Below, piece after piece: positions 6,733 to 20,325 of a stretch of 20,469 nt of DNA (positions are counted from its first letter, which is position 1; each line of letters opens with the position of its first letter). This DNA is from a virus, in IMG/VR virus record IMGVR_UViG_3300007640_000327, positions 1-20,469 of that record; one strand, written 5' to 3'. The notes under the pieces were generated by a model. It had not been told where the DNA came from. It searched no databases and saw only the letters and a list, made by a program, of their open reading frames with translations. The position numbers and the translations under genes are program-made.

Positions 6733-7464
6733 ATGGCAAATTACGTTACACTAGTTAATCAACTACTTACTAGACTAAATGAAGTTACTCTTGCTACAAC
6801 AGGCAGTGGCTTTGATGATGTACGTAACGTACAAGCATTAGCTAAACAAGCTATTAACAACTCCATTAGAAATATCCTACAGACAGGTCAGGAATGGCCT
6901 TTCTTAAAAACTACATATACTCAGACATTGACTGCAGGTACAAGACAGTATGATTTTCCTGCAGATTTTGCTACGGTTGACTGGGACACTTTTTATATTA
7001 AAGAGTTAGGCTCTGCAAGTAATACACCTAGCTACTTGCCAACTATTTCTTTTGAAGAGTATACTCAAAGATATCGTGGAATAGATGATCAAAGTGATTC
7101 TGGATCTGGTGTATCTGCTCCACAAAGAGTTTATCAAACATACGAAAGTAAGTTTGGTGTAACTCCTGTTCCAAATGATGCTTATGAAATAGAGTACGTA
7201 TATTGGACATTCCCTGCAGATCTTTCTGCCTATGATGATACAGCAGTTATTCCTGACAGATTTAATCATGTAATCATTGACGGTGCTATGATGTACATGA
7301 TGAGATTTAGATCAAATGATCAAAGTGCTGCTTTACACCAGCAAAGCCTTCAAGAAGGTATTCGTTCTATGAGACGTATTCTTATGGATGATCCACTAGA
7401 TATTAGATCTACAGTTATTCAAAGAAATAAATCGTTTAGCAATACTATGAGCACTATCGTCTAA
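6733..7464 (+). CDS. Head-tail adaptor protein (P22 gp4 / T7 gp11-like role)
   Basis: A 243-residue protein expected to sit as a ring below the portal and connect it to the tail nozzle. GAAGGA (6719-6724) precedes the ATG by 8 nt. The N-terminal half is helical (VTLVNQLLTRLNEVTLATTG, then QALAKQAINNSIRNILQTGQ), followed by a tryptophan-containing strand region (EWPFLKTTYTQTLTAGTRQY) and DFPADFATVDWDTFYIKE. That order, helices then a small beta domain then a C-terminal helical region, is characteristic of podovirus adaptor proteins. The C-terminus (MMYMMRFRSNDQSAALHQQS onward) is helical and ends in a flexible arm that could dock on the portal. Its TAA stop overlaps the next ATG by one base (TAATG at 7462-7466), coupling its translation to the nozzle. 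It has no cysteine. Sequence pattern and synteny both support the call. Confidence 0.75.
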   Translation: MANYVTLVNQLLTRLNEVTLATTGSGFDDVRNVQALAKQAINNSIRNILQTGQEWPFLKTTYTQTLTAGTRQYDFPADFATVDWDTFYIKELGSASNTPSYLPTISFEEYTQRYRGIDDQSDSGSGVSAPQRVYQTYESKFGVTPVPNDAYEIEYVYWTFPADLSAYDDTAVIPDRFNHVIIDGAMMYMMRFRSNDQSAALHQQSLQEGIRSMRRILMDDPLDIRSTVIQRNKSFSNTMSTIV

Positions 7465-9014
7465 TGCCTGAAAATTTAGCTTCCTTTAAAGTATTTGCTG
7501 AAGGTGGATTGAACCTGAACAGGGACGTGTTGTCTCAAGGGGAAAGACAACCTGGTTCTGCTATTTCCTTACTTAATTACGAACCTGCTATAACTGGTGG
7601 ATATAGACGTGTCAGTGGTTACACCAACGACTATGGCACAGTACCTGGTGATAGCTCTGGTAGTGTACTTGGTGTAGCAGTAGCTGCTGGTATTAACGAT
7701 GGTATTCTTGCTGCACGTAAGCCTTCTTCAGGTAACAACTACTTACACTACTGGGATGCTACAGCAGAGTCTTGGACAGCAGTAACTACTTCTGGTTCAC
7801 CTACAATGACAGGTGTAACAAAAGTAAGATTTACTAGGTTTAACTGGGGGACAGCAAAGGTTATCCTGACAGATGGTGTAAACCCTGCAGCTACCTACGA
7901 TGGTACAACTTACACCCAGATTACCCATGCTAATGCTCCTACAGATCCTAAGTTTGCTGCAGTATTCAAGAACCATATGTGGCTTGCAGGTGATCCTAGT
8001 GAACCTCATAACTTGTATTTCAGTGCACCTACAGACGAAACCAAGTGGGCACCTGCAGATGGTGCTGGTGTAATCAACGTAGGTTTTCCTATTGTATCAA
8101 TCAAACCGTTTCGTGATTCTCTGTTTGTATTTGGTACGAACAACATTAAAAGGATTGTAGGAAACAACATCTCAGACTGGGCTTTACAGCACGTAACAGA
8201 TGACCTTGGTTGCCTAGCATCAGATAGTGTTATTGAGATTGGTGGTGACCTAATCTTTTTATCACAGGATGGTATGAGACCTATCTCAGGTACAGATAAG
8301 ATTGGTGACGTTAACTTGGAAACACTAACCAAGAACATCCAATCTTTTATTTCTGATGTTGTGTTTAATAACGATCTTGATGCTGTCTCTTCTGTAATCA
8401 TCAGAGGTAAATCTCAGTTTAGATTATTCTATAACGTAGAAAATGGGAATGCACTTCTTGGTGGACTACGTATGGGACAACAGGGTGGCATTGGCTTTGA
8501 GTTTGGTCAGATGATTGGTATTGAGGCCACTTGTGCTGACAGTGGATACATCGACAAAGAAGAATATGTCATTCATGGGGACACTTCAGGTAAAGTCCAC
8601 AGACAAGAATCAGGTAATAGCTTTGGTGGAAATAACATCGTAAGCCTTTACCAAACACCATTCTTGCACATGCAAGATCCAGAGCAACGTAAGATTATTC
8701 ATACTGTTGCTACTTACCTTAGATCAGAAGGTGATAACGAGATCGTTATGTCGGTTGTATTTGACTACGATGATACCACCATTCTTAATCCAACTAACTT
8801 TACTTTAAGCACTGAAGGTGCTGCTGCATATTATAACGAAGCTGTCTTTAATGACTCTTCAACTATTTGGAGTGGTAACCCATCCCCTGTTCAAAGGGTG
8901 AATGTTTCAGGCTCAGGTAAATCAGTTTCTTTTAGATATGTTACAAATGACACGAATGCATCACACAGTATCCAAGGACTTGTTGTGACGTTTGGAGTGG
9001 GGGATAGATTATAA
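7464..9014 (+). CDS. Tail nozzle / stabilization protein (P22 gp10 or T7 gp12-like role)
   Basis: A 516-residue protein likely forming the hexameric, beta-propeller-containing nozzle of the short tail. The ATG overlaps the adaptor stop by one base with no clear Shine-Dalgarno sequence, so it is probably translated by reinitiation. The N-terminus (FAEGGLNLNRDVLSQGERQP) and a Tyr-Gly-rich segment naming the first propeller strands (ISLLNYEPAITGGYRRVSGY) are typical of this family. In the middle are DSLFVFGTNNIKRIVG and DDLGCLASDSVIEIGGDLIF followed by LSQDGMRPISG, a recurrent motif in phage nozzle proteins. The C-terminal third is beta-rich and ends in a small jelly-roll-like region. Only about two cysteines are present, against dozens in the fiber that follows. 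The stop codon abuts the next ATG directly. The role is inferred from recognised motifs plus its place after the adaptor. Confidence 0.75.
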   Translation: MPENLASFKVFAEGGLNLNRDVLSQGERQPGSAISLLNYEPAITGGYRRVSGYTNDYGTVPGDSSGSVLGVAVAAGINDGILAARKPSSGNNYLHYWDATAESWTAVTTSGSPTMTGVTKVRFTRFNWGTAKVILTDGVNPAATYDGTTYTQITHANAPTDPKFAAVFKNHMWLAGDPSEPHNLYFSAPTDETKWAPADGAGVINVGFPIVSIKPFRDSLFVFGTNNIKRIVGNNISDWALQHVTDDLGCLASDSVIEIGGDLIFLSQDGMRPISGTDKIGDVNLETLTKNIQSFISDVVFNNDLDAVSSVIIRGKSQFRLFYNVENGNALLGGLRMGQQGGIGFEFGQMIGIEATCADSGYIDKEEYVIHGDTSGKVHRQESGNSFGGNNIVSLYQTPFLHMQDPEQRKIIHTVATYLRSEGDNEIVMSVVFDYDDTTILNPTNFTLSTEGAAAYYNEAVFNDSSTIWSGNPSPVQRVNVSGSGKSVSFRYVTNDTNASHSIQGLVVTFGVGDRL

Positions 9015-12000
9015 ATGGCAGGTTATACAAGACAGAGTGTAGCTGATATTGTTTCTGGTCAGGTTATTAAAGCTGAACCAATCAACAACGAATTAAATCA
9101 GGTACTAGCTGCATTCAATGCAAGCACAGGACACAAACATGATGGCACTTCAGCAGAAGGTGCTTACATTCCAACTATCTCTGATACTAACAACTATAAC
9201 AAGGTTGTAATTGATACAACTAACAACAGAATTAATTTCTTCACTAATGTTGGTAATGCAGCAGTAGAGCAGGTAAGGATACAAGATGGAGCTATTGTTC
9301 CTGTCACTGATGAAGATATTGATCTGGGTTCTCCGACTGCTGAGTTCAAAGATCTTTACATTGATGGTGTGGGTTATATCGACACTCTGGCGGTACATGA
9401 AAATGCTACTATTACGGGTAACCTTACCGTTAATGGGAATACTACTCTTGGTAGTGACGATAGTGATACTGTTACAGTAAATGCTGATGTTGCCTCAGAC
9501 CTTATCCCTTCTGCAGATGCAACATACGATTTGGGTGCTACAGGTAGTGAATGGAATGATGCTTACATTACTGGTACAGCAAACATTGATAGCCTTGTAG
9601 CTGACACAGCAGACATTAATGGTGGTACTATCGATGGTACTACTATTGGTGCTACTACCCCTGCTGCTGCTGACTTCACCACAATGGATGCATCTGGTAA
9701 TGCTACTGTCGGTGGTACACTTGGTGTAACAGGTAACACAACACTGTCTGGTACTCTTGGAGTTACAGGTGTTTCTACTTTCTCTGATACAGTCTGTGCA
9801 CCTAACCTAAAAGCCACAGGAACCTCAACTCTTAGCACAGTAGACATTAATGCAGGTAATATTGACAATACTGTTATTGGTGCCACTACTCCTGTTGCAG
9901 GTAGTTTTACTACAGTTAGTACGTCTGGACAGGGTACTTTTGCTACAGTAGATATCAATGGGGGTACTATTGACGGTGCTACTATTGGTGCTACTACAGC
10001 ATGTCCTATAACAGGTACGACTGTTGATGGTACAATTATTACAGCAAGCACTTGTTTTGCAGGTAATGTCTGTGGTTCTGTCACTGGTGACGTAACAGGA
10101 AACCTTACAGGTAATGCTGCAGGTTGCCATACAGGAAACTTTGATGGTACTGTAGGGGCTACTACAGCTTGCCCTATAACAGGTACTACTGTTACTGCTA
10201 ACACTTGTTTTGTTGGATGTGTAGTAGGTAATGTAACAGGAGATGTTACTGGAAATCTTACTGGAAATGCTGCAGGTTGTCACACAGGTAATTTTGACGG
10301 TACTGTTGGTGCTACGACTGCATGTCCTGTAACTGCTACAACAATTGATGGTACTGTAATATGTGCAAGCACTTGCTTAGATGGACCTTTAGTAGGTAAT
10401 GTAACAGGCGATGTCACTGGTAATGTAAATTCAACAGGAATTTCTTGCTTTACAAGCCTTAAATTACAAGGTGATATGAATGCTAATAGTAATAAAATTA
10501 CAAACTTAGCAGATCCTGTTTCTGATTCTGATGCAGCCACAAAATTGTATGTCGATAATGCAGTTGAAGGTTTGGATGTAAAAGGATCTGTTAAAGTTGC
10601 TACAACTGCAAACATTACTTTAAGTGGTACTCAGACTATTGATGATATTGCAGTAGTTGCAGACGACAGGGTTCTTGTCAAAGACCAAAGTACAGCTTCA
10701 GAAAATGGCATATATGTAGTTGCTGCAGGTGCTTGGTCCAGATCAGATGATGCAGATACCTTTGACAAACATGCAGGAGCATTCTTCTTTGTTGAAGAGG
10801 GTACAACAAATGCTGATAATGGTTTTGTTGGTACTGTGGATACAGGTGGTACTCTTGACACTACAGATATCACTTTCGTACAATTCTCAGGTGCAGGGCA
10901 GATTACAGCAGGTACTGGTCTCACTAAGTCTGGCAATACTATTAACGTTGTTACTGCAGACTCTGGTAGAATTGTAACAAATGCTGACAGTATTGATCTT
11001 GCTACAACAGGAGTAAGTGCAGGAACTTATAAGTCTGTTACTACAGATGTTTATGGACGTATTACAGGTGGGACAAACCCAACTACTCTTTCTGGGTATG
11101 GCATTACTGATGCTTACACAAACACCTGCACAGATACACTTTTAGATGCTAAGGTAGATCTTGCAGGAGACACAATGACTGGTGACCTAGCAATGGGTGC
11201 CAACTGTGTTACTTCTACTGCTACACCTGCTACAGATGATACCTTAACTCGTAAAGGTTACGTTGATACACAGGATGCTTTAAAACTAAACTTATCAGGT
11301 GGTACTATGACTGGTGCCATTGATATGGGTTCTAGTAAGATAACCACAACGTATACTCCAACTGACAATGCCGATCTCACAACAAAAACATACGTTGACG
11401 GTATTTTAGGTTCTGCAACTGCAGCAGCTACTTCTGCTACCAATGCTGCTACCTCAGAGACTAATGCAGCCACATCAGAAACAAATGCTGCTAACTCAGC
11501 TACTAATGCTGCTGCTTCAGCTACTTCGGCTGCCGATTCTTATGATGACTTTGATGACAGATACCTTGGTGACAAAGCTTCAGACCCATCAGTAGACAAC
11601 GATGGTGATGGACTTATTACTGGTGCATTGTATTGGAATACTACAGACAATGCTCTAAAAGTATACACAGGATCTGCTTGGGCTTCTGCAGCATTTACAC
11701 TGGGTGATGCTCTTACTTGTATCCAAGAAGATACTTCTCCTGTCTTAGGTGGTAATCTTAATGCAGGTACAAACTGCATCTATGGTACAGGTGTAGTCTG
11801 TGTCTCTAACCTTTGTGGTACACTGACAGGTAACGTTACTGGTAATGTTACTGGTACTGTAAGTGATATCAGTAACCATGACACAGGTGACCTAACAGAA
11901 GGTTCAAACCAGTACTTCACAACAGGCAGAGTAGACAGCCACCTAACAGGTGGTACAGGTGTTACTTACACAACTGGTACAATAGCTATTGGTCAGTCTG

Positions 12001-13922
12001 TTGGTACAGCAGACAATGTATGCTTTGGTTCTGTCTGTGTTACAGCTAACCCAACTTTAGCTTGCCAACTTGCAACTAAAGAGTACGTTGACACGATTGC
12101 TGCTGCTGGTATCCACTACCATGACCCAGTACGTGTTGAATCACCAGACAGTGCAGGAAACCTAAATGCTACCTATGACAATGGTACAGCAGGTGTAGGT
12201 GCTACACTTACTAACAATGGTACACAAGCTGCCCTAGTTATTGATGGTGTAACCCTAAACACAAATGATCGTGTTCTTATCTACAGCCAAACCAATGGTT
12301 ACGAAAATGGTGTTTACACAGTTACCAACACTGGTTCAGCTTCAACTAACTGGGTTCTTACTCGTGCTACAGATGCTGACAGTTATGGTGCTTCAGATCA
12401 GAATGCACTAGGTGAAGGTGATGCATTCTTCGTAAAAGAAGGTGACACTGGTGCTGGTGAGTTGTACGTGATGAATACATCTGGTACAATTACATTCGGT
12501 ACTACAAACATTAGCTTTACTGTCGTAGCTGAGACTGCTGTTTACGATGCAGGTAATGGTCTGACACTAGATGGTACAACCTTTGCTGTAGGAGCAGGAA
12601 CAGGTGTTACAGTCAATGCTAACACAGTTGCTATCGGACAGGCAGTAGGTACAGGCGATACAGTAACCTTTGCCAGAGTATGTGCTCCTGTCACAGGTGC
12701 TGTAACTGGTAATGCTACTACTGCAACTTGCTGGCAAACTGGTAGAACAATCAGCCTTACAGGGGCAGTAACTGGATCTGTTACAGGTGTTAATGGTTCA
12801 GGTAATGTAAGTATTGCAACGACTGCTACTTCTGATCCTACACTTTGTATCTGTGGGGATGCTACAGGTTCTGCTACATTCACAAACCTTGGTAATGCTA
12901 ACCTTAGCCTTACTATTGCAGACGATAGCCACAACCATACAGTAGCTAACGTTGATGGACTAGCAACATGTTTGTCAGGTAAAGCTGGAACAAATGGTTC
13001 TACATCTAATAACTTTAGTGCAGCCTGTCTTTGTGCAGCTAACTGTTTCCAAGCTCCATACATTGCAGTAAACTGTGGTTGTGCAGTAAACTGCTGGAAA
13101 TCACCAGTTGTCTGTGGTTCAACTGCTCTTAGGGGTGCCTGTGCAGCTTTAACTACCTGTGTTTGCACACCATACCTAGTCTCATCAGGAATTGTTTGTG
13201 CAGGTACTTGTTTAAGAGGACAAACTTGTCTGAACACACCTATTGCTTGTGGATCAAGCTGTGTTATATCTCCTACTATCTGTGGTACTTCTTGGCTTGC
13301 AGTAGGTGGCAGATGTATCTGTGAAACTGGTGGTGAGTATGGAACAATTTCTGTTACTACTGGTAATAATAACTGGTGTGGTTACTCCATTGCTAACAAC
13401 TACGTGTTCATGGCATGTGGTGGATCGATGGGTCTGTACAATGATATTACAAATGAATGGGCACTTCTACATTGTTGCAACGGTTCAACATGTTTATACC
13501 ACAATGGAACAGCTCAATTTGCAACTACTGGTTACGGTTCTTATACATCAGGTTGTAGCTGTGCATCAAACTGCTTTATCTCACCAGTAGTATGTGGTGT
13601 TACAACCAGAGGTACAACAGCTTGCTTCACTGACTTCAACTCTACTTCTGACTGCAGGTGCAAAGAGAACATTGCTACAGTAGATGATGCATACAATAAG
13701 ATCGGTCAGATCAGAGGTGTGAACTATAACTGGAAAGATTCTGGCAAGTACACAATGGGTGTTGTTGCTCAAGAAGTAGAAGAAGCATTCCCAGAACTTG
13801 TTACAACAGATGACGATGGTTACAAATCAGTCAACTATAATGGCTTGGTAGGTGCACTTATTGAAACTGTGAAGTGTCTACAAGGTAAAGTAGAGGAACT
13901 AGAGAATGGCTCTAAAGGTTAG
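9015..13922 (+). CDS. Long modular tail fiber with cysteine-rich distal part and C-terminal S74 chaperone domain
   Basis: A 1635-residue receptor-binding fiber. The ATG follows the nozzle stop without a gap; GGAG at 8994 and the G-run after it can serve as ribosome site. Modules in order: virion-attachment N-terminus (1-120, YTRQSVADIVSGQVIKAEPI); short beta repeats of the TGNLTVNG / TIDGTTIGATTP type (about 130-475); a conserved fiber domain at about 521-625 (ATTANITLSGTQ, RVLVKDQ, ENGIYVV); a second related domain at about 1032-1175 (HYHDPVRVE, ENGVYTV); between them five tandem 7-residue Ala/Thr/Ser/Asn repeats (805-839), predicted coiled coil; a distal region (1318-1550) with about 33 of the protein's roughly 58 cysteines; and an S74-type intramolecular chaperone (about 1543-1635) with S1545, D1546 and K1550, the spacing of the family's Ser-Lys self-cleavage dyad, followed by GVVAQEVEEAFPELV. 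Such chaperones help trimerise beta-helical fibers and may be released afterwards. Confidence 0.85.
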   Translation: MAGYTRQSVADIVSGQVIKAEPINNELNQVLAAFNASTGHKHDGTSAEGAYIPTISDTNNYNKVVIDTTNNRINFFTNVGNAAVEQVRIQDGAIVPVTDEDIDLGSPTAEFKDLYIDGVGYIDTLAVHENATITGNLTVNGNTTLGSDDSDTVTVNADVASDLIPSADATYDLGATGSEWNDAYITGTANIDSLVADTADINGGTIDGTTIGATTPAAADFTTMDASGNATVGGTLGVTGNTTLSGTLGVTGVSTFSDTVCAPNLKATGTSTLSTVDINAGNIDNTVIGATTPVAGSFTTVSTSGQGTFATVDINGGTIDGATIGATTACPITGTTVDGTIITASTCFAGNVCGSVTGDVTGNLTGNAAGCHTGNFDGTVGATTACPITGTTVTANTCFVGCVVGNVTGDVTGNLTGNAAGCHTGNFDGTVGATTACPVTATTIDGTVICASTCLDGPLVGNVTGDVTGNVNSTGISCFTSLKLQGDMNANSNKITNLADPVSDSDAATKLYVDNAVEGLDVKGSVKVATTANITLSGTQTIDDIAVVADDRVLVKDQSTASENGIYVVAAGAWSRSDDADTFDKHAGAFFFVEEGTTNADNGFVGTVDTGGTLDTTDITFVQFSGAGQITAGTGLTKSGNTINVVTADSGRIVTNADSIDLATTGVSAGTYKSVTTDVYGRITGGTNPTTLSGYGITDAYTNTCTDTLLDAKVDLAGDTMTGDLAMGANCVTSTATPATDDTLTRKGYVDTQDALKLNLSGGTMTGAIDMGSSKITTTYTPTDNADLTTKTYVDGILGSATAAATSATNAATSETNAATSETNAANSATNAAASATSAADSYDDFDDRYLGDKASDPSVDNDGDGLITGALYWNTTDNALKVYTGSAWASAAFTLGDALTCIQEDTSPVLGGNLNAGTNCIYGTGVVCVSNLCGTLTGNVTGNVTGTVSDISNHDTGDLTEGSNQYFTTGRVDSHLTGGTGVTYTTGTIAIGQSVGTADNVCFGSVCVTANPTLACQLATKEYVDTIAAAGIHYHDPVRVESPDSAGNLNATYDNGTAGVGATLTNNGTQAALVIDGVTLNTNDRVLIYSQTNGYENGVYTVTNTGSASTNWVLTRATDADSYGASDQNALGEGDAFFVKEGDTGAGELYVMNTSGTITFGTTNISFTVVAETAVYDAGNGLTLDGTTFAVGAGTGVTVNANTVAIGQAVGTGDTVTFARVCAPVTGAVTGNATTATCWQTGRTISLTGAVTGSVTGVNGSGNVSIATTATSDPTLCICGDATGSATFTNLGNANLSLTIADDSHNHTVANVDGLATCLSGKAGTNGSTSNNFSAACLCAANCFQAPYIAVNCGCAVNCWKSPVVCGSTALRGACAALTTCVCTPYLVSSGIVCAGTCLRGQTCLNTPIACGSSCVISPTICGTSWLAVGGRCICETGGEYGTISVTTGNNNWCGYSIANNYVFMACGGSMGLYNDITNEWALLHCCNGSTCLYHNGTAQFATTGYGSYTSGCSCASNCFISPVVCGVTTRGTTACFTDFNSTSDCRCKENIATVDDAYNKIGQIRGVNYNWKDSGKYTMGVVAQEVEEAFPELVTTDDDGYKSVNYNGLVGALIETVKCLQGKVEELENGSKG
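9621..9998 (+). repeat. Three dispersed copies of a TIDGTTIGATTP-type module in the fiber gene
   Basis: Copies begin near 9621 (GGTIDGTTIGATTPAAADF), 9852 (AGNIDNTVIGATTPVAGSF) and 9960 (GGTIDGATIGATTACPITG). They are in frame, diverged at DNA level, and separated by other short beta modules. In the third copy the proline position of ATTP is replaced by ACP. They are probably repeated strands of a trimeric fiber shaft. Confidence 0.65.
9987..10430 (+). repeat. Tandem cysteine-containing repeats in the fiber shaft
   Basis: Two and a half in-frame units start at 9987 (56 codons), 10155 (51 codons) and 10308 (partial, to about 10430). Each begins GATTACP and carries TCF or TCL, then VTGDVTGN; the first two end AAGCHTGNFDGTV. 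Cysteines sit at equivalent places in each unit, so they existed before the duplication or were kept aligned by conversion or selection. Synonymous differences show that the copies are not recent. Confidence 0.7.
11427..11531 (+). repeat. Five tandem 21-bp units encoding a 7-residue Ala/Thr/Ser/Asn repeat
   Basis: The units read ATSATNA, ATSETNA, ATSETNA, ANSATNA and AASATSA (fiber residues 805-839). The alanines at heptad spacing predict a trimeric coiled-coil segment linking the two halves of the fiber. It is followed by a common fiber module (YDDFDDRYLGDKASDP, ending ALYWNTTDNALKVYTG). Confidence 0.75.
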
Positions 13923-14121
13923 TGGTACAACTGTTATTGACGACAGTAAAAACATTCCTTCAGGAACACCATCAGTGCAAGGGACGATAGTGACAGCTAA
14001 CGTCCTTACTGCACCTTCTGGTACGACAGCACAAAGACCTGCATCCCCAAACACAGGTCACATCTTTTTTGATACAACTCTTGGTACAATAGTTTCTTAC
14101 AATGGAACCGAATGGGTTTGA
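13906..14121 (+). CDS. Short stand-alone fiber module, paralog of the next gene's N-terminus
   Basis: A 71-residue protein whose ATG lies 17 nt inside the end of the fiber gene, in another frame; GAGG just upstream can act as ribosome site. It aligns over its whole length with the first about 69 residues of the following 1150-residue protein: MALKVSGTTVIDDSKN against MAYKINGTTVVDNSRN, then APSGTTAQRPASPNTG against VPSGNTASRPASPATG, then FFDTTLGTIVSYNGTEW against YFDTDLGSLISYDGTAW. This module is common at the N-termini of fiber-type proteins in environmental phages, where it probably docks the protein to the virion. Here it ends right after the tryptophan. It has no cysteine, whereas the paralog has five in the variable stretch. 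It may be a minor structural protein, or the remnant of a fiber gene that lost its distal part. Confidence 0.7.
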   Translation: MALKVSGTTVIDDSKNIPSGTPSVQGTIVTANVLTAPSGTTAQRPASPNTGHIFFDTTLGTIVSYNGTEWV

Positions 14122-14151: not shown

Positions 14152-17100
14152 ATGGCATATAAGATTAATGGCACTACGGTGGTCGATAACAGCAGGAACG
14201 TCTGTGCCTGTTGTGTTACCTCGTGTTGTATTACAGCTAGTACACGTATGGATGTTCCTTCAGGTAACACAGCCAGTAGGCCAGCATCTCCTGCTACTGG
14301 GTCTATCTACTTTGATACAGACTTGGGTTCTCTTATATCTTACGATGGGACTGCCTGGGCTGCTGTAGGTGGAGGATCTGGTTTAGACTTAGAAGAAATT
14401 GTAACTAGTGATGCAGATGCTTGGGCATTTATTGCTCCTTCAGCACAATGTGCATGTAGAACATATAACCCTCAGTGTCATGGTTATGCTTGTTATAAAC
14501 ATGGAGATTTAAAAGATTATTCTTTGTACTCTGTAGCTACAGATACTCCTTGTTTTCATACACTTCTAGCATTTCAAAACTACGGTAATGGTAGTTGTGC
14601 TGTACAATTATATTGTAGAGACTCACAACAATACATTTGCTGTGTAGAATGTGGGGAATACACAAAATGTGTAACTGCCCTTCCCTGTAGAACTAATAAT
14701 TGTTGTATTGGTATGATTGTTGGTTTGGAGCCAAACTGCAATGCATCATTAAATACTAGATTTAATGTTAAAGGACATTTTCCAATTCAGGTTGGACCTG
14801 ATGGATCTGTAAGAATTTTTGCTGTAGACAGATGTGTCCAAACTGGAACAAACCATTGCCTAGTAGGAGCTAACTGCTGGTATCATATGGGGGAATACTT
14901 TGTTAATACAAAGGGTGGAGTTTCCTTAAATGAAAACACTAGTCCTTGGGCTTGTGCTCTCAACATTTGTAAATGTACTAGAGTACCTTTTGGCTATATA
15001 GCCACTCCAAGAATTGCAGGTAAAACTCGTGATGGATGGTTAGCTTACTTTAGAGGAAGAATACATTTTAGAGATGATATTGGTTCATCTCCAAATATGT
15101 GTTGCCCTGTTAATATTCCTATTTTAAGTAGCACGTATGGAACTGGACTTGAAGAGGCTTGTGATTACTTCTTTATTACAAAACCTGGCCCTGGTGTTCC
15201 TTACTTCAATGCTCCTATGTTTCCTGTTTTAACCACAGGCTTGTGTTATTGTTATAACACATCTACACAGCTATGTGATACTGTTTACAATTGTTGTATG
15301 GCAAATCAGATACCTTTTAAAAGTACTATAAATGGTTTAGTTGGTTGTAATGAATTTAGCTTTTATAACTCCAGAACAGACATTCCTATGGGTGGTAGTG
15401 CTTATAATATAAACAATTATGATTTATGTATTTGTTGTTACTCAGATGGCGTTTGTAATGCTGCATTCTCTGTAGGATGTTGTGCTTTTGCAATACAAAG
15501 ACTTGTTGGGCATATTGGAGTATGTTGTATATGTTTTAGTAATTTTGCACAAGATTCACAAGGACTAATGTTTCCTTCAAGAGATGGATGTTACTTACAC
15601 AGAATTTTTATATGTCAGCAAACATGTGCCTCAACTTCTGTCTGCTCCTGTAAAAGGTCTACAAGCAGCTCAGGTGCTAATAACTGCTGGGGGCGTTTTG
15701 ACAGACTTTACCAAACAAAAATTGACAGGCTTAACCAATGTGTTGTACAACACAAAGGATTCTGTGGTGTAGATAAGCTTGCTTGGGAATGTAATGTTTT
15801 AGGATGCAGTGCTTTATCTGAACCTAGACAAACTTGGGTATCTGAGTATCCACAACTTTTGTGTTCAATTGGTGCTGCTATAGATCCAAATAGGGATCAC
15901 ACAGATCTTACAACATACATGAGATTTAATCATTCTGGTAGCAATTATACATGTCTCAGAACCATGCCACTTGAAGAACAACACCATGTTATTTGGAGTA
16001 AGGTTTGTTCTAACAGAGGGTTCCTCTTTTATGATAATTGTTGTGGAGAGATGGGGTACTCAGTCTTTGATTGTAACAAAGATCAACTAGACTTTACTTA
16101 CAATTTTTGTAGATCTTTAGGAGTTCATCCAAACAATCCAGTAGCTAGACATTTAGTAGATTTATTTGGTACACCTCCAGTTTGTATGTCTACCTCTTGT
16201 GTTGGCTGTTTTGCTTGTTTCTTTGGTGGGTGTTCCTCTGGGTGGACTGCCTACAGAGAATGTTTGTGTGCTGTTACTGGAAACTGTAGTGTACCTTTAA
16301 CTGCTAAATGTTTAGGGTATAAGCTTTACTTTGGTGGCTGTTCATGTATGTACAAATTTGTCCCACCAGGAACTGGTTCTCAGTTTTCAATGGTTCATAA
16401 CAGGTATAACGACCATTTAGTTTTCTTTAGAGCTATAGGGTGTAGTATCTCTAGTTCTGAAAATTACCCTAGTGAGATCTCTTGGATAGGAGCTATTTGT
16501 TGGGATCTACATAACCAATGTGTCTCTAAAGTAAATACTTTCTGGCCTCCTCCCCTTGATATATTACAGTATCAGTGTAAAGCATACTACGACATGCACC
16601 AGTGTGCTATAGCTTGCTCTACTTGTTATTTTACGTTATGTTCTCCTACCCATAAACCCCAGGGTTGTGGTTATGGTGGTTGTTTCTGTGAGTGTCACAG
16701 ACCTTGCAACCAAGGTGTTAAAGTTATTCCCTATGGAAACTATAAGACCTGGATTGACAGTGGTTGTACTGACTATGGTGGGCTTGTTATAAGTTCTCAC
16801 TTAGGGGGAGCAGGGTCATGTCATGGTAATCTAAACAATCTACAAATACGTAGAGATACTACTTGTTGTAATTACTTCTGTTATTATTACTGCACTGCTG
16901 TAGCATCTACTGATCCTTGTATAAGAAGTTGTAACTCAAACTTAATTATGAATATCGTTCCTGAAGCAGCTATGGTAGCTAGGGTTCCTTTTACTAAACC
17001 TTTAGAATGTATTGGCTGGAGATCCGAACCAGACTTTGCAAAGATGTTTAATGCTGTTATATCACCTCAGTGCTGTGCTTGCTACTTTACAAATTTAATG

Positions 17101-17604
17101 ACTTACGGTGGCACTGAACACCAGTGTATTACAAGACTTGCTAACTGTATGAATTTTAAAGTAGGTGAGTGTCAAACTTGTCAGGCATTAACATGTTGGA
17201 CCTGTGGTCCATACGGTAGTGTTGACTGTATGAGATGGCACTATACTCTAAAAATAGTAACTAGTAATTGTTGTTTATTTTCTAACTGTTGTTTTGTTAC
17301 AGGTCAAAGTAATGGAACTTGGTGTCCTGTTCCATTAAGTTGTTACTATGCTTATTTAACTACGTGTGCTCGTACTCATAACTGTGCACAAGTATATAAG
17401 TGTGTCCAACCATGTCACTTAAATAAAAGTGAAACATCTAAATTGTATATACACCCTTACATAGAAAGTGATGCTCCAGTAGTGGCACACAACTACTCTA
17501 GAAATAATAGAGCAGATGGACGATATATACCTCTTGCTACAGGTGAACACCCAAGAGAATGGTTCCACAGATTCTGGAATGAGTGTATAATCTGTTGTTG
17601 CTAA
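14152..17604 (+). CDS. Extremely cysteine-rich fiber-like protein, unknown fold
   Basis: A 1150-residue protein with GGAG (14141-14144) 7 nt before its ATG. Residues 1-72 are the virion-docking fiber module shared with the preceding small gene; a Gly-rich linker follows (GGGSG near 73). The remaining protein resembles no family I know. By hand count it has about 118 cysteines (about 10%), with around 15 vicinal Cys-Cys pairs, many CxC motifs, a dense cluster at GCGYGGCFCECHRPC and a C-terminus ending CIICCC. It is also rich in Tyr, Asn, Gly, Phe and Trp. Cys-poor islands occur at 27-98 and in the last 60 residues before the terminal cluster (LYIHPYIESDAPVVAHNYSR). No S74 chaperone, lectin motif, signal peptide or membrane segment is seen. 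Placement after the long fiber and the N-terminal module suggest a second fiber or tip protein; disulfide crosslinking or metal binding is inferred from composition only. The uninterrupted frame argues against a frameshift artefact. Confidence 0.8.
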   Translation: MAYKINGTTVVDNSRNVCACCVTSCCITASTRMDVPSGNTASRPASPATGSIYFDTDLGSLISYDGTAWAAVGGGSGLDLEEIVTSDADAWAFIAPSAQCACRTYNPQCHGYACYKHGDLKDYSLYSVATDTPCFHTLLAFQNYGNGSCAVQLYCRDSQQYICCVECGEYTKCVTALPCRTNNCCIGMIVGLEPNCNASLNTRFNVKGHFPIQVGPDGSVRIFAVDRCVQTGTNHCLVGANCWYHMGEYFVNTKGGVSLNENTSPWACALNICKCTRVPFGYIATPRIAGKTRDGWLAYFRGRIHFRDDIGSSPNMCCPVNIPILSSTYGTGLEEACDYFFITKPGPGVPYFNAPMFPVLTTGLCYCYNTSTQLCDTVYNCCMANQIPFKSTINGLVGCNEFSFYNSRTDIPMGGSAYNINNYDLCICCYSDGVCNAAFSVGCCAFAIQRLVGHIGVCCICFSNFAQDSQGLMFPSRDGCYLHRIFICQQTCASTSVCSCKRSTSSSGANNCWGRFDRLYQTKIDRLNQCVVQHKGFCGVDKLAWECNVLGCSALSEPRQTWVSEYPQLLCSIGAAIDPNRDHTDLTTYMRFNHSGSNYTCLRTMPLEEQHHVIWSKVCSNRGFLFYDNCCGEMGYSVFDCNKDQLDFTYNFCRSLGVHPNNPVARHLVDLFGTPPVCMSTSCVGCFACFFGGCSSGWTAYRECLCAVTGNCSVPLTAKCLGYKLYFGGCSCMYKFVPPGTGSQFSMVHNRYNDHLVFFRAIGCSISSSENYPSEISWIGAICWDLHNQCVSKVNTFWPPPLDILQYQCKAYYDMHQCAIACSTCYFTLCSPTHKPQGCGYGGCFCECHRPCNQGVKVIPYGNYKTWIDSGCTDYGGLVISSHLGGAGSCHGNLNNLQIRRDTTCCNYFCYYYCTAVASTDPCIRSCNSNLIMNIVPEAAMVARVPFTKPLECIGWRSEPDFAKMFNAVISPQCCACYFTNLMTYGGTEHQCITRLANCMNFKVGECQTCQALTCWTCGPYGSVDCMRWHYTLKIVTSNCCLFSNCCFVTGQSNGTWCPVPLSCYYAYLTTCARTHNCAQVYKCVQPCHLNKSETSKLYIHPYIESDAPVVAHNYSRNNRADGRYIPLATGEHPREWFHRFWNECIICCC

Positions 17605-17681: not shown

Positions 17682-18608
17682 ATGAAAACTGTTTTTGTAA
17701 TTGATGGTGGAGCAGGTAGGGCTATAGCAGCTATTCCTGCTCTCATCAAATACTCAAAGAAAAACCAAAACTTTAAAGTTATGGTTATGGGTTGGGACTC
17801 TCTGTACTGGGGTATCCCTGAGCTACACGATAAAGTATTTAATCCAGATCAAAAAGGTGCCTTTGAGCAATTCTTTATGGATGCTGACAGGGTTATCTCT
17901 CCAGAACCATACAGAGTTCCAGGCTACTACAAACAAGAAAAGTCTCTTGCTGAAGCTTTTGATTACTTGATCAACGAGACTGATGATCACTCTGACCTTG
18001 GTGCTCCTGTTCTTAAAACAAATAGGCAAGAAGAACTACAGGCTGCTAACTTTATGCAATCTGTAAGACAGCAACAACAGAAACAGAAGACTATTGTTAT
18101 ACAACCTTTCGGTAGATCTATTGAAAAACCACAAGAAGGTGTTTTATTAGATCAGTCTTCTCGTTCTATTAATCCAGATACGTACCTTAAACTAGTAAAG
18201 AAACTAGCAACAAAGTATAACCTAGTTTTGTTTGCTGAGAAAAACTTCTGGATGCCTGAAGATACGTACACCATGAAGCCTGAAGCAGACCTTCGTATGT
18301 GGTCAGCATTTATTGATGCAGCAGATTACTTCATTGGTTGTGACTCTGCAGGTCAACATATGGCAAGAGCATTTAATAAACCAGGTACAGTAATTATAGG
18401 ATCTACTTTTTCTATAAATACTAGTTATCCAAAACACTTTAATATTGTAGAAAGGGATGTTCCTAAAGTATACTCACCTATCCGTATATCAGGTCTTGAG
18501 TCACACTTAGCTGACAGGTTCAACGAGTCTACAGTAGAGTTTAGTGATGAAGAAATTAATACGATGTATGCTGACATTGTGAAAGACATCGAGAAGAAGG
18601 TGAAGTAA
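17682..18608 (+). CDS. GT9-like glycosyltransferase (heptosyltransferase family)
   Basis: A 308-residue, soluble GT-B-type enzyme expected to transfer a sugar, by family analogy a heptose from an ADP-heptose-like donor, to a glycan acceptor. The N-terminal Rossmann-like start (VFVIDGGAGRAIAAIPALIK) occupies the place of the acceptor-site Gly loop of GT9 enzymes. The C-terminal half contains AADYFIGCDSAGQHMARAFN (about 213-232) with D221, S222 and H226, the counterpart of the family's DSG...H donor-binding motif, followed by KPGTVIIGSTF and a proline turn. Length is near the lower end for heptosyltransferases. It is separated by one base from the carbamoyltransferase start, so the two are likely co-expressed. 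The neighbouring GmhB-like gene on the opposite strand supports a heptose theme. Donor and acceptor cannot be told from sequence: they may be a virion protein, a host lipopolysaccharide or a nucleotide sugar. Confidence 0.72.
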   Translation: MKTVFVIDGGAGRAIAAIPALIKYSKKNQNFKVMVMGWDSLYWGIPELHDKVFNPDQKGAFEQFFMDADRVISPEPYRVPGYYKQEKSLAEAFDYLINETDDHSDLGAPVLKTNRQEELQAANFMQSVRQQQQKQKTIVIQPFGRSIEKPQEGVLLDQSSRSINPDTYLKLVKKLATKYNLVLFAEKNFWMPEDTYTMKPEADLRMWSAFIDAADYFIGCDSAGQHMARAFNKPGTVIIGSTFSINTSYPKHFNIVERDVPKVYSPIRISGLESHLADRFNESTVEFSDEEINTMYADIVKDIEKKVK

Positions 18609-18609
18609 A

Positions 18610-20325
18610 ATGAATATCCTAGCAATTAATCCAGGTCATAATGGTTCTGCTGCCTTACTAATAGATGGTGAACTAGAGTTTTACGTAGAAGAAGAAAGAC
18701 TGTCTCGTAGTAAATATGATGGTAACCCTTTTATGGGAATGCTTGAATCACTTAAGTATGGGGTAGATACTTTAATTATTGGTGGTACACATCCAGACTT
18801 ACCACAGCTTCCTTGGACTGGCGAAGATCCCTATACTGCTATTATTCGTAAACATAATCCAAATCTTAAAGTAATAAAAGCTGGACATATTCATCATATA
18901 GGCCATGCTGCTGCAGCTTTCTTTAACTCAGGGTTTGAAGATGCTGCTGCTGTTATTGTAGATGGTTCTGGAACTAGACAAGATATAAAACTTAATGAGG
19001 AAGGTCAAACAAATCCAGGGTTTGAAACAGAGAGTATATTTAACTGTAGTTACTCTGATGGCATAGTTCCTGTGTTTCAATCTTTTGGTGGTAACTTTGA
19101 TACCATGCCTGTCTCCTCTGATAACATTGAAATGGATAATGCTATCACACTTGTTAAAGCCTATGAAGCTGTATCAGACTATTTAGGTTTTGGTTTTATT
19201 GAAGCAGGTAAGACAATGGGTCTTGCACCATACGGTAAGTATGATGAGATGATACCTAGCCTGTTCTTTAATGGTAGAGGAAACAAGAATGTATTTATCC
19301 CTAATTACCCTGCTGGTGCTCATATTGATCATGGTCGTCACCCCTATCTAAGTCTTAAAGAAGATCCAAAGGCTTGGCATAATGATCCTAGTAAGGTAAC
19401 AGAAGCAGCTAAAAACTTAGCTTGGGCAGTACAAGATGAAACACAAACTCTTGTTGGTGACTTGATTGAGAAAGCTGTAAAGAAAACTGATAAGAAGAAT
19501 ATTGTTATTGCTGGTGGGTATGGTCTTAACTGTGTAGCAAACTACTACTACAAGAAACGTTTTCCTGACCTAAACATCTACGTAGATCCTATCTCTCATG
19601 ATGGTGGTACAGCAATCGGTCTAGCTCAATTAGTCCACTACACAGAAACTAAAGATGAAACTATTCGTCCACTAAGTACTTTGTATCTTGGCCCTAAACG
19701 TGAAGAGTCTTACGACTTTGGTGACATTGAAACGACAGAAGTAAAACCTGCTGATGTAGCAAAGCTTATCTCTGAGAAGAATATCGTAGCCTTATACCAA
19801 GGACGTTCTGAGGCTGGCCCTCGTGCACTGGGTAACCGTTCTATCCTTTATGATCCCACAGATCCCAAGGGTAAGGACACTGTGAACAAGGTCAAAGGAC
19901 GTGAGTGGTTCAGACCATTTGCAGGTTCAATGATGCAGGAGTACTTTGAAGAGTGGTTCGAGACATATGGGATGGAAGAGTCACCATTCATGATGTATGC
20001 AATGGACTTCAAGTTAGAGAAGCATGGTGAGTGTCCTGCTATCACACACGTAGATGGTACTTGTCGTATCCAGACTGTGACTAAAGAGCAGAATGAAACA
20101 TACCATACTCTGATAGATGAGTTCCGTAAGATTACTGGTGTACCTATCCTGTTCAACACTAGCTTCAACCTAGCAGGTGAGCCATTAGTAGAAACATTAG
20201 ATGATGCAATGAGAACTATTAAGAACTCAGACATCAACTACTTGTACATACCAGAACAAGGTCTGTTGGTAAAGTATCCCCACAATGACTCAGTAGTTGA
20301 AGAAGAAAAGGAAGAGGCTGCTTAA
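18610..20325 (+). CDS. NodU/CmcH-type O-carbamoyltransferase
   Basis: A 571-residue ATP-dependent enzyme that transfers a carbamoyl group from carbamoyl phosphate to a hydroxyl, usually on a sugar. Both domains are intact. The N-terminal Kae1-like domain has MNILAINPGHNGSAALL, the metal-binding HIHHIGHA (H93, H95, H96, H99), VDGSGT, and GKTMGLAPYGK. The C-terminal YrdC-like domain has GRSEAGPRALGNRSIL (398-413), RPFAGS and LFNTSFNLAGEP (514-525), the family signatures. The length is typical. It starts one base after the glycosyltransferase stop with an AAGGTGAAG ribosome-site region, forming a two-gene unit. Cysteines here fall at ordinary family positions (GLNC), showing that cysteine codons are read normally in this genome. 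The product is probably a carbamoylated sugar on a phage or host glycan; enzymes of this family also occur in other marine phages. The sugar substrate is unknown. Confidence 0.92.
   Translation: MNILAINPGHNGSAALLIDGELEFYVEEERLSRSKYDGNPFMGMLESLKYGVDTLIIGGTHPDLPQLPWTGEDPYTAIIRKHNPNLKVIKAGHIHHIGHAAAAFFNSGFEDAAAVIVDGSGTRQDIKLNEEGQTNPGFETESIFNCSYSDGIVPVFQSFGGNFDTMPVSSDNIEMDNAITLVKAYEAVSDYLGFGFIEAGKTMGLAPYGKYDEMIPSLFFNGRGNKNVFIPNYPAGAHIDHGRHPYLSLKEDPKAWHNDPSKVTEAAKNLAWAVQDETQTLVGDLIEKAVKKTDKKNIVIAGGYGLNCVANYYYKKRFPDLNIYVDPISHDGGTAIGLAQLVHYTETKDETIRPLSTLYLGPKREESYDFGDIETTEVKPADVAKLISEKNIVALYQGRSEAGPRALGNRSILYDPTDPKGKDTVNKVKGREWFRPFAGSMMQEYFEEWFETYGMEESPFMMYAMDFKLEKHGECPAITHVDGTCRIQTVTKEQNETYHTLIDEFRKITGVPILFNTSFNLAGEPLVETLDDAMRTIKNSDINYLYIPEQGLLVKYPHNDSVVEEEKEEAA

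Follow-up and report, generated by a model that had tools for sequence, protein, structure and literature searches.

We analysed a 20,469 nt stretch of viral DNA (IMG/VR record IMGVR_UViG_3300007640_000327, positions 1 to 20,469; hereafter the window), in which a long tail fiber gene and its neighbour encode proteins dense in cysteine (Cys) and are followed by a gene for a GT9-type glycosyltransferase. The principal finding is that this type of enzyme and Cys-rich proteins are associated with one another across unrelated sequences. An initial annotation of the window had suggested that the two adjoining genes share a function because of their composition, for example as interlocking tips or through common maturation. 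A shared function is well supported, because the trait tracks and depends on the GT9-type gene just downstream, and common maturation is the reading favoured by the association, as Cys modification by the adjoining enzyme. We consider it reasonably probable that the GT9-type enzyme S-glycosylates the fiber Cys, the role of Cys as acceptor being suggested by the association itself.

Utilizing the GT9 gene of the window as the sole query, an open reading frame (ORF) with at least 5 % Cys was found in 27 of 29 loci; in the other two, the contigs end 615 and 647 bases upstream of the enzyme. In seven of the loci (L040, L041, L045, L046, L047, L050 and L052), the Cys-rich protein was unlike those of the window in name or start. 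A profile built from 15 enzymes added 7 loci in genome contigs and 80 in viral contigs, the latter either new or overlapping with earlier ones. Of the 106 loci in these wider sets, 87 were usable and formed 52 clusters at 90 % identity, the 19 left out having less than 3 kb upstream or no plus-strand match to the enzyme. ORFs of at least 200 amino acids with at least 3 % Cys were present in 44 of the 52 GT9 clusters compared with 1 of 62 enzyme-free control loci, and at a threshold of at least 5 % Cys the counts were 38 of 52 and 0 of 62, the control loci including some fetched by the Cys-containing N-terminus of the second Cys-rich protein as well as cultured records of our choosing.

Because queries based on Cys or on the enzyme could bias the sample, loci were also gathered via the head-completion gene, which is blind to both. 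This sample comprised 86 loci including six cultured relatives, and 30 of them had at least 7 kb of downstream sequence. An ORF with at least 5 % Cys was present in all 19 enzyme-positive loci and in none of the 11 enzyme-negative loci (Fisher p = 1.8e-8, counting near-identical contigs singly; merging by eye leaves 15 against 10). Loci sharing both fiber length and Cys count were L214/L215, L227/L229, L233/L234/L237 and L249/L250. The top ORFs contained 8.9–12.3 % Cys in enzyme-positive loci and at most 2.4 % in enzyme-negative loci, and the fibers of the enzyme-negative phages CRP-1, CRP-9, ctYwJ313 and HMO-2011 contained no Cys at all. Among the 56 loci left out for short downstream DNA were several cut ones with fibers of 0.8–3.3 % Cys and no enzyme in view. 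The association was also apparent in reverse: relatives of three Cys-rich proteins occurred in 20 phage records, 19 of them among the 24 records carrying GT9, whilst the 20th is another contig of the single cell AG-345-E02, whose other contig has the enzyme. Pelagibacter phage HTVC033P encodes two tail-region proteins of 1.7–1.8 % Cys (L212, 17343–19139 and 19673–21415); no GT9-type enzyme was found in its 29 kb stretch, and ferrochelatase-like and 2-oxoglutarate (2OG)-oxygenase genes lie nearby. Seven contigs carrying the GT9 cassette and Cys-rich genes (L200–L206) have been binned as metagenome-assembled genomes of Woesearchaeota, Euryarchaeota, Actinomycetota, Rhodobacteraceae and others, and look like wrongly binned phage contigs, several of cyanophage type.

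Within the long fiber, Cys is concentrated in the distal part, where about 33 residues had been counted between positions 1318 and 1550 of the protein. The density was borne out but the count is 31 (13 %), an enrichment over the Cys rate of the whole fiber (p = 3.6e-10). A further 27 Cys lie elsewhere in the fiber, and the trait is therefore not limited to the distal tip. The region had also been described as seemingly built of repeats, with SPVVCG present near 13100 and 13570; the motif does occur twice, at 13101 and 13581, and spaced CxCxxxC elements (ACLCAANC, NCGCAVNC, GCSCASNC) recur. Tandem duplication as the cause of the trait was nonetheless rejected, because the trait crosses 37 sequence clusters. 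A Peptidase_S74 domain directly follows the Cys region (E = 2e-14; 54.1 bits against a cut-off of 22), placing the protein among S74 (endosialidase chaperone) tail fibers, and Cys extends into this part too, in SDCRCK and VKCLQ, both kept in 14 of 14 aligned relatives. A monomer model of fiber residues 1278–1635 with 14 relatives had a mean predicted local distance difference test (pLDDT) score of 39, too low for Cys geometry to be read. Opposite Cys, low-Cys relatives carried S (102), C (85), T (71), A (68), gaps (64), D (37), Y (37), Q (33), N (33) and others, counted over the 34 best alignments, in which repeat regions align loosely; these mixed residues led us to reject a plain Ser-to-Cys exchange as the sole rule.

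The gene after the fiber is richer still, at 10.3 % Cys; a tblastn search of the phage collection gave no match to its product, for which there was no Pfam family either. Seven other virion genes of the window contain 2 Cys in 2828 residues altogether, and Cys richness is therefore a property of the two adjoining tail proteins and not of the genome. Mutational bias was tried as an explanation, and the TGT/TGC counts in the other frames of the second gene (13–82, against 118 in frame) were not decisive. Searching with the distal fiber region recovered 19 loci in viral contigs, all of which except the weakest (L021, 31 % identity) kept a fiber of 2–5 % Cys. The next gene in these loci, where in view (in L012 at its start only), encoded a protein of 7–13 % Cys that starts MAYKxNGTTVxDNSRNVCACCVTSCCITAS and ranges from 494 to 1156 amino acids among complete ORFs, and a GT9-like and then a NodU-like gene followed wherever the contig continues. 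The spacing between the two large Cys-rich genes is 232–233 bases in many relatives.

The Cys-rich proteins as a whole are diverse in sequence. Grouping at E <= 1e-6 divided 80 proteins of at least 150 amino acids and at least 5 % Cys, drawn from 62 representative loci, into 37 clusters with up to 29 members. They included small Gly-rich cyanophage proteins such as PSSM2_304 and PSSM2_306 of P-SSM2 (36 Cys each), three Gly-rich Cys proteins in tandem in S-SSM7, Sf-FS3, S-CAM1 and S-CAM3, and S74 fibers of 17-residue beta-roll-like repeats. The trait also extends to an Ala-rich, probably helical stretch in Vibrio phage D505, so no common tip geometry is needed. In D505, the one record read of 31 Vibrio phage records, the tail protein gene after the enzyme encodes 41 Cys, mostly within residues 110–930. 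Aeromonas phage HJ05 has an enzyme 26 % identical to that of the window, and the gene before it encodes 4.1 % Cys, 9 of the 30 annotated genes having been counted. The D505 enzyme itself (L294, 9478–10215) is a short GT9-type protein of 245 amino acids with a GGLGR motif, and no fewer than 25 near-identical Vibrio phage records carry it. When the Aeromonas phage enzyme served as query against viral contigs, four pattern matches came up, none of which was confirmed. Repeats allow position to be assessed: across 359 distinct repeats of 17 residues, taken from nine loci, Cys occupied the variable phases 6, 7, 10, 11, 16 and 17 (6–24 %), never the free hydrophobic phases 2 and 4, and phase 14 in 1.9 % (phases 2, 4, 6, 7, 10, 11, 14, 16 and 17 were free, the others being fixed by the search pattern). 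Relative to residue frequency, exchanges of Cys with N, Q, T, R, H and E were over-represented and those with W, P, I and G under-represented. This placement and exchange pattern fits solvent-exposed functional sites.

The match of the GT9-type enzyme to PF01075 lies under the gathering score (17.7 against 22 bits, E = 0.0023), family models rank lipopolysaccharide (LPS) heptosyltransferases first, again below cut-off, and a sequence search of the PDB with the enzyme profile gave no match up to E = 1. The AlphaFold2 model (pLDDT 96.5) shows the GT-B heptosyltransferase fold of the GT9 family, with Z scores of 23.6 to a Veillonella GT9 protein (3tov), 21.6 to WaaF (1psw), 21.1 to TibC and 19.7 to WaaC (2h1h); two to three chloroplast NDH subunits also scored 19–20, and the next group 11.8. 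In a multiple alignment, an Arg that is invariant in 65 of 65 aligned phage enzymes (Arg13) takes the place of Asp13 of Escherichia coli WaaC and WaaF, the candidate base of the GT9 family. The corresponding candidate base of TibC, Asp110, was found by superposition with WaaC and MurG (PMC4358343). As thiol attack needs no strong base, loss of the Asp could mark a switch from hydroxyl to thiol acceptors. In eight relatives (L133–L138, L047 and L140), the first ATG of the enzyme frame falls well within the tblastn match, so the gene there must start with GTG or TTG.

Downstream of the enzyme lies a cassette that continues past the end of the window. In a contig with identical proteins (L027), the enzyme is followed by NodU, a GmhB-type phosphatase (E = 3e-36), an HldE adenylyltransferase (4.5e-29), an HldE kinase (1.5e-35), a cupin and an HldD epimerase (9e-66), identities that are best matches, all below curated cut-offs. 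The GmhB-type gene of this contig (12641–13294) is on the minus strand, opposite the rest of the cassette, whereas in cyanophages L121–L125 it is the epimerase that runs in the opposite direction. Of the 45 enzyme loci that extend 6 kb or more downstream, 38 had NodU, 21 HldE kinase, 20 HldD, 19 cupin and 15 GmhB, and none of these cassette genes was found in 77 loci without the enzyme. NodU additionally displays weak similarity to HypF. The cassette is carried by Sf-FS3, a phage of Synechococcus WH8102. According to PMC4515613, the LPS of Synechococcus WH8102 and CC9311 contains neither heptose nor 3-deoxy-D-manno-octulosonic acid (KDO). A phage enzyme that heptosylates LPS makes little sense in such a host, and one directed at the fiber does. 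Genes for 2OG-Fe(II) oxygenases recur in or beside the cassette in S-SSM7 (L121), Sf-FS3 (L125) and L122, and the S-SSM7 region also holds a tryptophan halogenase gene, so that more sugar or fiber modification is possible.

The features of the window discussed above are collected in Table 1, together with a short Cys-free ORF that overlaps the end of the fiber gene and is paralogous to the N-terminal part of the second Cys-rich protein. The head-completion gene (7464–9014) is 67–69 % identical to those of Roseobacter phages CRP-1, -2, -9 and -13 and 34 % to that of HMO-2011; this conserved gene and a similar gene order assign the window to the HMO-2011-type podovirus structural module. The capsid and adaptor match the P22-like coat and SU10 adaptor families.

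Table 1. Coordinates of features in the 20,469 nt window
Feature	Position	Strand	Basis
Long tail fiber, 1635 aa, 58 Cys, S74 chaperone domain at C-terminal end	9015..13922	+	ORF, Cys count, Peptidase_S74 match
Cys-rich distal part of long fiber, residues 1318-1551, CxCxxxC and SPVVCG repeats	12966..13665	+	Cys count, alignment
Peptidase_S74 (chaperone of endosialidase) match, fiber residues 1545-1597, includes SDCRCK	13647..13805	+	Family match and alignment
Short ORF, 71 aa, Cys-free, overlaps fiber gene end	13906..14121	+	52 % identity to residues 1-70 of second Cys-rich protein
Second Cys-rich tail protein, 1150 aa, 118 Cys; N-terminus MAYKINGTTVVDNSRNVCACCVTSCCITAS conserved, remainder length-variable among phages	14152..17604	+	ORF, Cys count, relatives
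GT9-type glycosyltransferase (heptosyltransferase fold), Arg13 for Asp13 of WaaC/WaaF; proposed fiber Cys S-glycosyltransferase	17682..18608	+	Family match, model, alignment
NodU-type carbamoyltransferase, constant GT9 partner	18610..20325	+	Family match, cassette counts

Several observations weigh against S-glycosylation of Cys by the GT9-type enzyme. Eight of the 52 clusters lacked an ORF of at least 3 % Cys at the 200 amino acid cut; three of these (L167, L186 and L192) have ORFs of 165–170 amino acids with 7–12 % Cys, and the other five (L151, L159, L168, L183 and L185) show no Cys-rich ORF in view. Two enzyme-positive loci (L270 and L273) have no Cys in the first fiber and carry it solely in other proteins. 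Heptose genes lie beside just 20–21 of 45 enzymes, and their absence near more than half suggests that a different sugar, or one supplied by the host, may be used. The match at residue 13 comes from a multiple alignment at low identity, in which WaaU was misaligned in this region, and hhalign with WaaC alone covered the C-lobe only. Cys was the most conserved residue type (0.76 compared with a mean of 0.54 over 208 pairwise alignments), which taken alone would suit disulfide or metal sites as well. No sequon was detected, the neighbours of Cys showing no strong preference beyond more Cys, and modification of every Cys would lead to crowding at CC pairs and triplets.

Four other explanations were considered. 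Clusters of Cys could hold iron, zinc or copper, for stability or as bait for metal uptake receptors, with the sugar genes acting elsewhere. Tight CxC and CC spacings, the conservation of Cys and the largely aquatic origin of the carrier phages, as judged from sources and hosts, are in keeping with this. Metal binding does not, however, account for why a glycosyltransferase gene should decide the presence of Cys (19 of 19 against 0 of 11); moreover, the 37 unrelated clusters share composition without a common ligand motif, and Cys is scattered across the variable phases of the 17-residue repeats. We regard it as very unlikely; its variant as bait for iron receptors is supported by no test. We judge equally improbable the interlocking tips of the initial annotation, that is disulfide or other covalent cross-links between chains or between the two fibers, although many Cys do occur in two adjoining fiber proteins and are conserved in register among relatives. 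Cross-links give no reason for coupling with GT9 and NodU, and the small cyanophage proteins and the Vibrio stretch display the trait outside a fiber-tip context. The reducing cytoplasm would in addition keep most Cys as thiols during folding.

The cassette may alternatively modify host LPS as annotated, the Cys-rich proteins being a separate trait of the same variable locus. This follows published readings, namely those of such cyanophage genes in PMC3037559 (function unknown or 'stuffer DNA') and of pelagimyophage glycosyltransferases in PMC7029224, and the best family matches of the enzyme are indeed LPS heptosyltransferases. Yet the link to Cys persists through 37 Cys-rich clusters and through phages of podovirus-like, T4-like and other kinds; it also holds in HJ05 and D505, although the DNA searched near their enzymes showed none of the six cassette genes (NodU and five heptose-cassette genes), and the LPS composition of the two Synechococcus strains (PMC4515613, as above) fits poorly with LPS as the target, leaving this explanation quite unlikely in our estimation. 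Finally, Cys may be modified by another enzyme or with another group, for instance through carbamoylation of the thiol itself by NodU or addition of a sugar other than heptose. NodU is the most constant partner of GT9 (38 of 45), its weak similarity is to a protein, HypF, that handles cysteine thiocarbamate in hydrogenase maturation, and heptose genes are missing in more than half of the loci; in HJ05 and D505, by contrast, GT9 has a Cys-rich neighbour although no NodU was found close to it, and we consider this explanation unlikely.

Several characterized systems come close to the one proposed here. The TibC/AAH enzymes, acting on TibA/AIDA-I, are likewise dedicated GT-B heptosyltransferases of similar fold (Z 21.1) and, in the account given for TibC in PMC4358343, place many ADP-heptose-derived sugars on a surface adhesin. 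As described there, TibC has an iron finger of four Cys, whereas the window enzyme contains a single Cys among its 308 residues; its N-terminal beta-barrel spans residues 1–97, whereas residue 1 of the modelled phage enzyme aligns with TibC residue 97, which would leave no barrel; and it has Asp110 as candidate catalytic residue and Ser as acceptor, where the phage enzyme has Arg and putatively Cys. Transfer of heptose from ADP-heptose to a surface protein, in the manner of bacterial autotransporter heptosyltransferases (BAHT), may apply to the phage enzyme, the ADP-heptose genes of the cassette bearing on it indirectly. WaaC and WaaF share the fold, the ADP-heptose genes nearby and, in WaaC, Asp261/His266 aligned with Asp221/His226 of the phage enzyme, but differ in having Asp13 at the catalytic position against an invariant Arg13, and the phage enzyme scores below the Pfam cut-off. 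The enzymes known from glycocins are of another type. Cys glycosylation is described for glycocins and a few proteins in PMC9877059; sublancin and glycocin F share the proposed sulfur-linked sugar, but are single small bacteriocin peptides carrying glucose or N-acetylglucosamine, nowhere near 100 Cys per chain. Fibers of Synechococcus phages S-CAM7, S-CAM9 and S-PRM1 have homologous S74 and tip segments (34–42 % identity) but only 0–2 Cys in 1824–2014 residues, with SDRRVKENI or SDRRLKDNI where the window has SDCRCKENI, and the 24 GT9-bearing records include none of these phages. The same cassette (GT9, NodU, HldE parts, cupin and epimerase) is present in the 'LPS gene clusters' of P-SSM2 and S-SSM7 described by Sullivan et al. 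in 2010 (PMC3037559), where several such genes are noted to co-occur and the choice between functional genes and 'stuffer DNA' is left open. The word 'cysteine' does not occur in the text of PMC3037559, and the Cys-rich neighbours of the cassette go unmentioned.

We propose that in both the fiber and the second Cys-rich protein the Cys would serve as acceptor sites for sugars. Inside the infected cell, the GT9-type enzyme would move a sugar, most likely heptose from ADP-heptose, onto Cys thiols, and the NodU-type enzyme would probably carbamoylate that sugar. For hosts without ADP-heptose, the phage would supply HldE-type kinase and adenylyltransferase, GmhB-type phosphatase and HldD-type epimerase; where the host already makes ADP-heptose, the enzyme could come alone. 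The outcome would be fibers thickly covered by thioether-linked sugar, a coat that may serve stability, adhesion or evasion. Heptose as the sugar in every case has lower odds than S-glycosylation itself, because over half of the enzymes have no heptose genes nearby. On the broadest formulation we are evenly divided: a virus-encoded S-glycosylation system in which a GT9-type enzyme with Arg in place of Asp would put up to about 100 Cys-linked heptoses or carbamoyl-heptoses per chain on fibers of any fold, selecting its substrate by composition over sequence, having spread among phages of several bacterial groups, podovirus-like and T4-like ones among them, and constituting the unrecognized purpose of the heptose part of cyanophage 'LPS clusters'.

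The literature searched, which covered neither most subscription journals nor preprints, yielded no account of GT9 enzymes directed at Cys, nor of phage fibers rich in Cys that accompany such a cassette, and if the chemistry were confirmed the status 'categorically new' would be defensible. Carriers of the cassette or enzyme include cultured Vibrio phage D505 and cyanophages, making the proposal immediately testable, with D505 a tractable system. If true, it would represent dense S-glycosylation of viral proteins, a chemistry so far known from few small peptides and single sites, and would provide a new set of S-glycosyltransferases for stable glycoconjugates. Modified Cys would have a shifted mass, and standard proteomics would thus miss many peptides of these fibers. 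It would also offer a testable answer to the purpose of the cyanophage 'LPS' heptose genes, a question open since 2010 (PMC3037559), in that such 'LPS clusters' would in part be fiber-decorating cassettes. For phage–host recognition, it would add an extra layer of modification that sequence-based prediction of host range ignores.

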